Positions 4,146 through 50,953 of a stretch of 64,000 nt of DNA are shown one piece after another. Below the pieces are notes generated by a model that made no database searches, was not told the DNA's origin, and saw only the letters and a list, made by a program, of their open reading frames with translations. The DNA lies in the NCBI RefSeq assembly GCF_000427365.1, contig NZ_KE386488.1, positions 1,054,001-1,118,000 on the forward strand, in the 5' to 3' direction. A program made the translations under genes and the position numbers. Numbering within the stretch: the first letter of the stretch is position 1; every line of letters starts with the position of its first letter. This stretch comes from Rikenella microfusus DSM 15922. Lineage in GTDB: Bacteria > Bacteroidota > Bacteroidia > Bacteroidales > Rikenellaceae.

Positions 4146-4241
4146 ATAAGAGAATAAGAGAATAAGAGAATAAGAGAATAAGAGAATAAGAGAATAAGAG
4201 AATAAGAGAATAAGAGAATAAGAGAATAAGAGAATAAGAGA
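4146..4241. repeat. Perfect tandem repeat, 12 x 8 bp (ATAAGAGA)
   Basis: Twelve uninterrupted, identical copies of ATAAGAGA run from 4146 to 4241. They lie between the TonB-like stop codon (4091-4093) and its terminator stem (4249), so they are part of the mRNA 3' untranslated region. There are no spacers, so it is not a CRISPR array. Perfect short repeats like this usually vary in copy number by slippage. Confidence 0.97.
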
Positions 4242-4248
4242 ATTAAGA

Positions 4249-4286
4249 AGAGCGTTGAGTTTATACGAACTCAACGCTCTTTTTTG
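4249..4286 (+). terminator. Terminator after the TonB-like gene
   Basis: AGAGCGTTGAGT (4249-4260) pairs perfectly with ACTCAACGCTCT (4269-4280), with an 8-nt loop and a T run through 4286. It is a strong intrinsic terminator on the plus strand. Confidence 0.9.
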
Positions 4287-8655: not shown

Positions 8656-8728
8656 TCAGGCCGGAGCCATCCCCGGCGTAGGCCTGCAACTGCGCGGTGC
8701 TTGTTGCGGCCCCGCTGGCTCCGGCCAT
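8656..8728. repeat. Palindrome-ended repeat (TCAGGCCGGAGCCA family), copy 2
   Basis: TCAGGCCGGAGCCA at 8656-8669 faces TGGCTCCGGCC at 8716-8726, with GGCCTGCAACTGCG in between. Both the ends and this internal segment are shared with 50729-50796. Confidence 0.8.
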
Positions 8729-38966: not shown

Positions 38967-40757
38967 ATGAAATATACGCTGATGTTATGCGCCCTCCTTT
39001 TCGGGGGACCTTTATGCGTCTCGGCGCAGACCGCCGCCATGGCGGAGAAATACCCGCTGGGGGACTACGAAGAACTGACCGACACCAAACCCCACGACGG
39101 GGCGGAGGTATGGAACGCGCTCAAGAAACCGGTCGGCCTGAGCTGGGGCGACACCGATACCCGCTATAAGAAGCTGGATGTCCCGAAGGTCGAAAACAAC
39201 ACCCTGTGGCGCGCCAAAGCCTGGAAAGGGGAACGGGTGAACGGCCAGGCCGTGCTGTGGACCGCCGAAGCGTTGGACGACGTGACCGTTACGGTCAGCG
39301 ACCTGCGCGGCAGCGGCCGGGTGACGATCCCCGCTTCGGCCGTGGAAGCCAGCTTCGTGCGTTACGTAATGACCGACGAGCTGAACAAAGGCGGCGGGGG
39401 CGGCTGCGGCCACCGGCCGAACAAAGCGGACTGGGATTCCTCCGTCGTGGCCGACGTGCTGGATACGGTGAGCGTCCGCGACCTGAAACCCTGCTCGGCC
39501 CAGCCGATCTGGGTGAACGTCCGGGTGCCGCAGGATGCCGCGCCCGGCACCTATAAAGGGACGCTGACGGTTTCGGGCAAAAACCTGAAGCCGATGAAAC
39601 TCCGGATGGAGATCGGCGTGGTGAACCGCACGCTGCCGGAACCGGCCGACTGGAAATTCCACCTCGACCTGTGGCAAAACCCCTACTCCGTAGCCCGTTA
39701 CCACCAGGTGCCGCTGTGGAGCCGCGAACACTTCGACGCCATGCTGCCGCTGATGAAAAGGCTGGCCGCCGCCGGACAAAAGGTCGTGACGGCCTCCATC
39801 ATGCACAAACCCTGGGCCGGACAGACCGAAGACCATTTCGACAGCATGATCGGCAAGACGCGGAAAATAGACGGCTCGTGGAAGTACGACTACACCGTGT
39901 TCGACAAATGGGTCGATTTCATGCTGAACGAAGCGGGCATAGACGGACAGATCAACTGCTACACCATGATCCCGTGGGCGCTGAGCTTCGACTATTTCGA
40001 CCAGGCCACCAGCCGCGTGCAGTTCGTGAACGCCGAACCGGGCGACAGCGCCTATGCCGCTTACTGGCTGCCGTTCCTCAAAGACTTCTCGCGCCACCTG
40101 CGCGGGAAAGGGTGGTTCGAAAAGACCGCCATCTCGATGGACGAACGTCCGATGAAAGCGATGCAGGAGGCGATCAAGCTTATCCGGAAAGCCGATCCGG
40201 AATTCAAGATCACGCTGGCCGGGAACTACCACGACGAAATCCAGGCCGACCTGTACGACCTCAGTATCCCCTACACGCACAAATTCCCGGAAGCAGTCAA
40301 GGCCCAGCGGGAGAAAAACGGTCAGATCAGCACCGTTTATATCTGCTGCACGGAGGCTTTCCCCAACACGTTCACCTTCTCGAACCCGGCCGAAGCCGCG
40401 TGGCTGCCGGTACACGCCGTAGCCGGCGATTACGACGGCGTGCTGCGCTGGACATACAACAGCTGGACGGCCGATCCGCTGCGCGACTCCCGATTCCGCA
40501 CCTGGGCCGCGGGCGACTGCTACATCGTCTATCCGGGCAACCGGAGCAGCATCCGCTTCGAACGGCTGATCGAGGGAATCCAGAACGCCGAAAAAATCCG
40601 CCTGCTGCGCGGCGAACTGAAAGCGAACGGGAACGATGCCGGGCTGAAAGAGCTGGATGAAACGGTAGCCCTCTTCACGCCGGAAGGGCTGAAGAAATCG
40701 CAGATGGAACCGGAGGCGATGCTGGTACAACTGCAAGAGCTGCTCAACACGCTCTGA
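38967..40757 (+). CDS. GH123-like beta-N-acetylgalactosaminidase
   Basis: A 596-residue exported protein (signal MKYTLMLCALLFGGPLCVSAQ). An N-terminal beta-sandwich (about 80-220, with NVRVPQDAAPGTYKGTLTV) is followed by a TIM barrel with FHLDLWQNPYSVARYHQVPLWS and the catalytic pair Asp392-Glu393 in AISMDERP. Adjacent Asp-Glu and this architecture match GH123 (formerly DUF4091), whose characterised members release GalNAc from glycosphingolipid-type chains by substrate-assisted catalysis. RWTYNSWTADPL and GDCYIVYPG are further family blocks. The start at 38967 is at the signal peptide, 39 codons into the longest frame. Confidence 0.93.
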   Translation: MKYTLMLCALLFGGPLCVSAQTAAMAEKYPLGDYEELTDTKPHDGAEVWNALKKPVGLSWGDTDTRYKKLDVPKVENNTLWRAKAWKGERVNGQAVLWTAEALDDVTVTVSDLRGSGRVTIPASAVEASFVRYVMTDELNKGGGGGCGHRPNKADWDSSVVADVLDTVSVRDLKPCSAQPIWVNVRVPQDAAPGTYKGTLTVSGKNLKPMKLRMEIGVVNRTLPEPADWKFHLDLWQNPYSVARYHQVPLWSREHFDAMLPLMKRLAAAGQKVVTASIMHKPWAGQTEDHFDSMIGKTRKIDGSWKYDYTVFDKWVDFMLNEAGIDGQINCYTMIPWALSFDYFDQATSRVQFVNAEPGDSAYAAYWLPFLKDFSRHLRGKGWFEKTAISMDERPMKAMQEAIKLIRKADPEFKITLAGNYHDEIQADLYDLSIPYTHKFPEAVKAQREKNGQISTVYICCTEAFPNTFTFSNPAEAAWLPVHAVAGDYDGVLRWTYNSWTADPLRDSRFRTWAAGDCYIVYPGNRSSIRFERLIEGIQNAEKIRLLRGELKANGNDAGLKELDETVALFTPEGLKKSQMEPEAMLVQLQELLNTL

Positions 40758-40773
40758 CCCGAGAACGGATACC

Positions 40774-40817
40774 GAGCGGGGCGGGGAAGAAGGTTTCTTC
40801 CCCGCCCCGCTCTTTTA
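40774..40817 (+). terminator. Terminator after the GH20-GH123 pair
   Basis: A perfect 18-bp GC-rich stem (40774-40791 with 40795-40812), 3-nt loop, then TTTTA. It lies 16 bp past the stop. Confidence 0.9.
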
Positions 40818-40890
40818 CCGCGCTCTCCGACATCCCTCCCCGGAACCGGCTGCCATACCCCGCGCTCGCCCGGAATAAAAAGGAGGTTCC

Positions 40891-41074
40891 CTACTTTCAT
40901 GTACCCAATTGGTCGGAGAATCTCCCCATTCGGCCTTGCGCCGCCGGGTACTCCGGCCGGGAGTTCTTTTTGTCGAAAAGGTCCGGCACGAGGCGATGCA
41001 AACCCGCGCAAAAGACCCGGAGGATCCGGCGCGAATCGAAAAATCAGTCGGGGGCATAGTATATACGACTTTAC
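40891..41074 (+). repeat. KA-family repeat, first of three abutting elements
   Basis: It starts CTACTTTCATGTACCCAATTGG, resembling the start of the next element (ACTTTGATATACCAATTGG). It contains GGGAGTTCTTTTTGTCG and GTCCGGCACGAGGCGATGCA, shared with 520-715 and 36100-36140. It ends with AGTATATACGACTTTACC, a KB-type end. Confidence 0.75.
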
Positions 41075-41090
41075 CTTATTCGATTCGCCC

Positions 41091-41238
41091 GATTATATAC
41101 TTTGATATACCAATTGGTTTTCGTCGATACTTTTTCGGCTCGCGCCGCCTCCCCCTCCGAGGGCTGAAAGCCGTCCGGCGCGAAGCCGATGGAGGGGAAT
41201 TGCCCCCGAATAGGTTTGGTAGACCAAAGTATATAATC
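41091..41238 (+). repeat. MITE-like element with GATTATATACTTTG terminal inverted repeats
   Basis: Positions 41091-41111 and 41218-41238 are inverted repeats with 19 of 21 positions matching; the outer 14 bases (GATTATATACTTTG) are identical. The interior is GC-rich with TTTTTCGGCTCGCGCCGCC, also near 21050 and 1520 in inverse orientation, and an AGGGCTGAAAGCCGTCC segment. Element length 148 bp; no open frame. Confidence 0.85.
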
Positions 41239-41242
41239 GCTG

Positions 41243-41412
41243 GTAAGTATATACGACATTACCCAAAATCGGGCAAGGATCTCTCTAAACGGCCCTGCGG
41301 TGCCGCTCGGCACAGGGGACCGGGGCTTTCTCTGCTTAAGGGGGTGGGCGCGGACCGAAATATCCTGAAAATCAAGCGTGCAATGATATAGGGTAAAGTC
41401 GTATATACTTAC
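41243..41412 (+). repeat. MITE-like element with GTAAGTATATACGAC terminal inverted repeats
   Basis: Positions 41243-41264 and 41391-41412 are inverted repeats with 21 of 22 positions matching. This is the best preserved KB-family copy (170 bp). It starts 4 bp after the preceding element ends. The interior has GGCCCTGCGGTGCCGCTCGG and GGGGGTGGGCGCGGACCGAAA. Confidence 0.88.
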
Positions 41413-41560
41413 TTAATCGGTTTTATTTGTATGACTGGTTTTCAGATGTTCTCGACCTGCGCCCGCCCCTTGGCAAAGTCCCGGGCCCCTGCGCCGAACG
41501 ACGCCGCCGGACCGATTAGGGAAATCATCGCACGGTTTTGGGTTAAGTTATACTTGCCTA
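41401..41560 (+). repeat. KB-related repeat sharing an end with its neighbour
   Basis: The sequence after the 41391-41412 end (CTTACTTAATCGGTTTTATTTGTATGACTGGTTTTCAG) parallels 32255-32292, and GGGAAATCATCGCACGGTTTTGGGTTAAG parallels 36359-36385. It ends with TTATACTTGCC. It therefore appears to share its left terminal repeat with the preceding element. Confidence 0.7.
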
Positions 41561-41814
41561 AATTGTAACAATCGCCGTCGTTTTTTGATCCGGGACAACT
41601 CTTTTATCGGCCGCAGCCTCTACTTTTGGAACCGGACACGGAAACGGCGCCCGCCCCGAAGACCGAACGCGCCGCGACGGCAACCGCTCCGTTCCGCACG
41701 AATTCGACGGCAGCCGAAGCGTAAACCGAATTAAAATGTTATCTTGGCGAAAACAAAGCGCCGCCGGGCACAGAAACCGGCGGCATAATAACCATAACCA
41801 TATACCGTTCGACA
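41561..41814. other. Leader region of the GH84 gene
   Basis: About 250 bp without a gene. TTATCTTGGCG near 41740 is a weak match to the -7 box. A GCCGCCGGGCACAGAAACCGGCGGC inverted repeat (41760-41785) lies just upstream of the start codon. No repeat-family sequence seen. Confidence 0.5.
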
Positions 41815-50728: not shown

Positions 50729-50796
50729 GGCCGGAGCCACCCCGGGCGGCGGCCTGCAACTGCGTTGCGCTTGTTTCGCCTCCGCTGGCTCCGGCC
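50729..50796. repeat. Palindrome-ended repeat (TCAGGCCGGAGCCA family), copy 3
   Basis: GGCCGGAGCCA at 50729-50739 faces TGGCTCCGGCC at 50786-50796, with GGCGGCCTGCAACTGCG inside, as in 8656-8728. Confidence 0.8.
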
Positions 50797-50953
50797 ATAA
50801 AATTAACTGTACGGTTTCTTGCATAGGGCCGCGGCTTGCGGAGAGCGGGGTAGTTACAGCCCGGATCGAGCGCCGAGCGGCACCGGGCTGCAACCATTCC
50901 CGCCCTCGCCGGCTCCGGCCTTGAGTATCAGAAACCAGACCTACGAATAAATC

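Follow-up and report, generated by a model that had tools for sequence, protein, structure and literature searches.

Short intergenic repeats of bacteria differ in the marks they leave in the DNA that receives them. Correia elements duplicate the dinucleotide TA, and REPs are not known to have such duplications. A duplication of fixed length combined with a preference for palindromic targets is the mark left by DDE transposases; insertion sequence families with duplications of about 8 bp include IS66, IS1595, ISL3, IS6 and IS1, and some families with duplications of this length have ends that start GG or GTAA. The closest described systems are the MITEs of Porphyromonas gingivalis, for which the part of the published account used here names BrickBuilt, MITE239, MITE700 and PgRS/464 (PMC4596501). 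Like the elements analysed here, these lack a transposase, have inverted ends and lie between the genes of a Bacteroidales genome (in the same part of PMC4596501).

The stretch of DNA that was analysed (the window) comprises 64,000 nucleotides, C2:1054001-1118000 of the two-contig, 2.88 Mb genome of Rikenella microfusus. A tandem array of about a dozen copies of the 8-base unit ATAAGAGA lies at 4146-4249 of the window, and a GC-rich interspersed repeat (GGCCGGAGCCA...TGGCTCCGGCCAT) lies at 8659-8728 and 50729-50798 in copies 86% identical, and was also seen by eye near C2:1031319. The spacer described here is flanked by genes named GH123 and GH84 in an earlier, sequence-only reading that assigned the names from the letters alone; the nearest GH84 relatives found were in Rikenella or Rikenellaceae MAGs, at 77-81% identity. 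Four elements, E1 to E4, occupy the spacer (Table 1). We read the region as nested MITEs (non-autonomous DNA transposons) that belong to two families, A and B, and were laid down in successive insertions, and put the probability of this reading at about 0.88.

Table 1. Elements and flanking repeats in the spacer between GH123 and GH84 (window positions).
Feature	Position	Strand	Description
E1	40891..41052	.	Decayed B-type element (KA repeat of the sequence-only reading); truncated at the left tip and degenerate at the right; approximate limits
E4, left part	41053..41087	.	Decayed A-type element, interrupted by E2; 35 bp
Putative left target duplication of E2, TCGATTCG	41080..41087	.	5/8 positions match 41422-41429
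E2	41088..41241	.	B-type element, inserted in E4
Left target duplication of E3, TAATCGCT	41234..41241	.	Part of the right tip of E2; 7/8 match 41414-41421
E3	41242..41413	.	A-type element, 172 bp, inserted in the right tip of E2
Right target duplication of E3, TAATCGGT	41414..41421	.	7/8 against TAATCGCT
Putative right target duplication of E2, TTTATTTG	41422..41429	.	Weak, 5/8 against TCGATTCG
E4, right part	41430..41558	.	Remainder of the decayed A-type element; 129 bp

Terminal inverted repeats are present in both families. A-type ends are near GGTAASTATATACGACTTTACCC and B-type ends near CCCGATTATATACTTTGRTATACC, aligned copies having the edges GGTAAG...CTTACC (A) and CCCGATT...AATCGGG (B); a TATATAC block is common to the two kinds of end, which otherwise differ. 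The genome-wide search for these ends that had been proposed with the sequence-only reading found 145 A-type and 63 B-type ends at up to 3 mismatches, and 118 A-type ends with a narrower pattern, while the reversed-pattern controls gave 0 in each case. Matches in the genome number at least 51 for E2 (best 40 of 138 candidates) and at least 56 for E3 (best 40 of 191 candidates), short self-inverted end matches being included in both counts, and the core of E1 recurs in at least 44 matches (best 40 of 163 candidates scored). E3-like copies show identities of up to 95%. Within the E3 class the median nearest-neighbour identity is 91% and the best pair reaches 97.7%, so that most copies of this class do not look very recent.

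At the loci examined, paired A elements measure 121-211 bp and paired B elements 84-212 bp, leaving no room for a transposase gene. The paired A elements at these loci are of several length classes, and many of them have cores with little resemblance to that of E3, which indicates that several cores share one kind of end. The examined loci were centred on matches, and local densities taken from them are biased as a result. At position 6 of the A end, 26 of 34 elements have the same base at both ends (G/G in 17, C/C in 9), which suggests two subfamilies or end-recognition variants. Possible ends of a third type, GGTAATTATATACT, were noticed by eye near E2-like matches at C2 ~2303 kb and ~431 kb, with ACACTGYATGA standing further in. 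The A and B elements are new MITE families of an already known kind of element.

In both families there are members with 8-bp direct repeats on either side, and the targets are AT-rich and palindromic. Of the 97 pairs of opposed ends, 24 had flanks that repeat exactly over 8 bp and 5 had flanks that do so over 4, 5 or 7 bp; in the other 68 the flanks share no exact repeat between 4 and 12 bp long. If a single mismatch and a shift of at most 2 bp were tolerated, 50 of 100 pairs had an 8-bp repeat at 7/8 or better and 50 failed; swapped flanks of different elements reached 7/8 in 145 of 9,900 pairings (1.5%). The pair lists behind these counts include some overlapping pairs with a common end (e.g. 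at 566, 576, 583 and 1351 kb). Target octamers are 80% AT, against 45% in their local surroundings, and follow the pattern TWWNNWWA. The earlier description of the repeats as MITE-like and multicopy is borne out by the copy number, the 8-bp target duplications and the differing sites in congeners.

Sharp edges with 8-bp target repeats also speak against the repeats being immobile sequences kept as structured RNA or regulatory hairpins, an explanation that we consider highly improbable. The cores do self-pair, and a consensus fold of 34 A copies, calculated without a shuffle control, has an energy of -18.7 kcal/mol, but only three core pairs have changes on both sides (in 6, 1 and 1 of the 34 sequences). 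Rfam gave no match near the gathering score; the matches near the site were far below their gathering scores and lay at 40757-40832, outside the elements. The elements might nonetheless have a secondary regulatory role.

The sequence-only reading had placed the inverted-repeat elements of the spacer nearly exactly. The arms of E2 (41090-41113 and 41216-41239) are 92% complementary and those of E3 (41243-41270 and 41385-41412) 89%, and the chance matches expected in the window for patterns made from the ends of these elements are 0.01 and 0.00. E2 carries B ends at 41088-41111 (0 mismatches) and 41218-41241 (3 mismatches), and its best other copy, at C2:446713, aligned with a score of 230 (best of 300 shuffles 41). 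Both edges of E3 are A ends with 1 mismatch each. E1 aligned to the B-type element C2:1302351-1302562 (reverse) with a score of 149 (best of 300 shuffles 41); in this and all the other alignments of the spacer elements the shuffles preserve base composition only. The KA repeat that had been given as 40891-41074 is real and corresponds to E1, except that its last ~22 bp (41053-41074) belong to E4.

E4, which had been taken for a fourth element with its right end in common with the third, is a separate, older A-type element with sequence on either side of E2 and E3. Its left part carries an A end at 41054-41076 (4 mismatches) and on its own scored 40 against the A consensus (best of 300 shuffles 26), and the right part alone scored 119 (39). 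Joined, the halves are colinear with the A consensus at a score of 151 (34), and removal of E2 and E3 thus leaves a single colinear A-type element. E3 sits between TAATCGCT and TAATCGGT, and the right tip of E2 serves as its flanking octamer. E3 therefore lies within the tip of E2, and E4 is split by E2. The case for the insertion of E2 is made by the colinearity of E4, as the repeat TCGATTCG/TTTATTTG matches at only 5/8 and is weak alone. E1 adjoins the left tip of E4, and no target repeat for E4 or E1 is readable at the spacer. From this arrangement we infer that E1 and E4 were in place before E2, and that E3 came last. What had been described as head-to-tail packing is nesting, E3 in E2 and E2 in E4. 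Since the halves of E4 join colinearly, the reported separations of 4-16 bp are target duplications and pieces of the host element.

Nesting of this kind raises the question of whether new copies seek out old ones, as the sequence-only reading had proposed. Seven of the 50 insertions that show a good repeat overlap an A or B end other than their own, and 6 further insertions lie within 40 bp of one; the cleanest nest elsewhere, C2:1046010-1046164, has a perfect TATCGAAG repeat and interrupts a B end. For 49 of the 50 insertions (1 was left out for unread bases), uniform local choice predicts just 2.1 overlaps where 7 were seen, and a choice of AT-weighted targets within 300 bp predicts 4.2 +/- 1.7, with weights learned from the same insertions that were tested. 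AT preference thus explains most of the effect, and special targeting is not required. Insertion actively directed to the ends of existing copies, for example via a transposase bound there, would account for the overlaps, for the neighbours within 40 bp and for the shortfall under uniform choice. It is unlikely, given the AT-weighted prediction and given that only 4 of the 7 overlapped ends have 3 or fewer mismatches (the others have 5, 5 and 6). A mild extra preference for element ends, beyond AT content, may still be at work.

The other process that had been put forward, a replication-like amplification, finds no evidence here, where the arrangement is one of successive insertions. That the copies multiplied in place through replication slippage or recombination is barely credible to us, as the four elements belong by turns to two unrelated families and differ in how far they have decayed, a separate target repeat flanks E3, and the two halves of E4 are colinear across the split. 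Recombination between copies does take place, however. C2:438156-438520 and C2:566539-566902 have about 300 bp in common that are near-identical (3 substitutions and one 1-base gap), and the tract covers an A element in part and, beyond a 21-bp gap, a B element. Since the 3 substitutions fall in the right part of the B element, this near-identity is probably the product of gene conversion. Transposition of the 438-kb composite (A left, B right; outer flanks 6/8 alike at a 1-base shift) as a unit was also considered, and was dropped in favour of gene conversion. Eight mixed pairs were found (five A-left/B-right, three B-left/A-right), some of them nesting artefacts; the 50 pairs that have a good repeat include no mixed pair, and an exchange of ends between the families is therefore not supported. 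At C2:180651-180806 and C2:182736-182909, 2 kb from each other, the same ~100 bp of left flank runs into the start of an A element; the right flanks differ, and the arrangement looks like a local duplication.

Mobility of the elements is also what the related genomes point to. E3 has matches in at least 5 of 31 genomes, this one included, all of the same genus, several of the matches being short core pieces. The A end occurs in 4 of the 8 genomes of the genus, some of which are incomplete drafts, with 145 copies here and then 3, 2 and 1, that is, in 3 of 7 congeners with few copies each. In the congener G002 an A-type element next to a gene read by eye as ilvC is flanked on both sides by TAAAAAAA, a perfect 8-bp repeat although a low-complexity octamer. 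Another G002 junction spans ~700 bp and includes an A-type remnant; the corresponding junction in this genome is ~45 bp long and free of elements. The presence of elements at junctions thus differs between species, as mobility predicts. The comparison of occupied and empty sites that had been recommended succeeded in so far as this G002 junction differs; an empty form of the present spacer was not found among four loci (L101-L104), in which nothing to the left of window position 41723 is matched at the nucleotide level. With up to 4 mismatches allowed, 80 GH84 loci (922,116 bases, mostly of other genera) contained neither A nor B ends. The B end had no match in viral contigs and E3 none in plasmid and phage records. 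Four viral contigs matched 18 bases of the A end; they are alike around the match and have a single end and no element, and this was judged to be chance.

In the mechanism we propose, a DDE-type transposase supplied in trans would bind the inverted ends, and the elements would be inserted through 8-bp staggered cuts. Copies would cluster because their own ends are AT-rich targets amid GC-rich surroundings and because such spacers tolerate insertions. A genome-encoded transposase with matching ends, which the sequence-only reading had suggested looking for, was not found by profile searches with five domains and inspection of some loci by eye. PF12762 (IS1595), PF01609 (DDE_Tnp_1) and PF00872 (IS256) had no match in this genome, and PF03050 (IS66) and PF01610 (ISL3) had none in the 8 genomes of the genus, this genome included; in 14 control genomes the five profiles matched 1, 9, 6, 4 and 4, respectively. 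The sequence-only reading had noted that the window has no transposase, and the whole genome, of which the window is a part, gave none of these five domains. The negative result holds for these five domains, and a mobiliser of another family may still be encoded in the genome. No transposase was recognised by eye beside eight unpaired A ends, in the open frames at 564.9-567.3 kb, or among the four longest open frames at eight congener loci. Opposed A ends separated by 1-3 kb (180.6-182.9, 984.9-987.1 and 565.1-567.1 kb) were considered as an autonomous partner and proved to be separate short elements; this inspection was made among the A ends listed, which leave out ~45 of the 145. It is conceivable, but quite improbable, that one undescribed or very diverged transposase moved both families, which have the TATATAC block of their ends and the 8-bp duplications in common, and is hidden in the genome or has been lost, leaving a large population of masterless MITEs.

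What looks like head-to-tail packing of bacterial repeats can thus be read as successive, datable insertions, for which the choice of AT-rich targets is most of the explanation. The families have expanded in one Rikenella genome, against few copies in congeners and with no matching transposase found so far, so that what moved these elements can be tested directly.

Among the papers searched, none was found on miniature inverted elements in Rikenella microfusus, nor one on inverted-repeat transposable elements in Rikenellaceae. Correia elements and REP/BIME sequences are, like the present elements, short, abundant, intergenic and often clustered, but differ from them in the duplication, 8-bp repeats being seen here. 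The length of the duplication is like that of IS66, IS1595, ISL3, IS6 and IS1; an origin from IS66, IS1595 or ISL3 is not supported, the transposase domains of these having no match in this genome. Compared with the MITEs of P. gingivalis, as far as the part of the account used here describes them (PMC4596501), the Rikenella elements are more numerous (~10-20 copies in P. gingivalis) and have duplications of 8 bp instead of 4 bp; the P. gingivalis ends resemble ISPg1/ISPg9 or ISPg3, and the Rikenella ends differ from these. The nesting of one MITE inside another is common to both, as MITE239_11 lies within BrickBuilt_18 in P. gingivalis (same part of PMC4596501).
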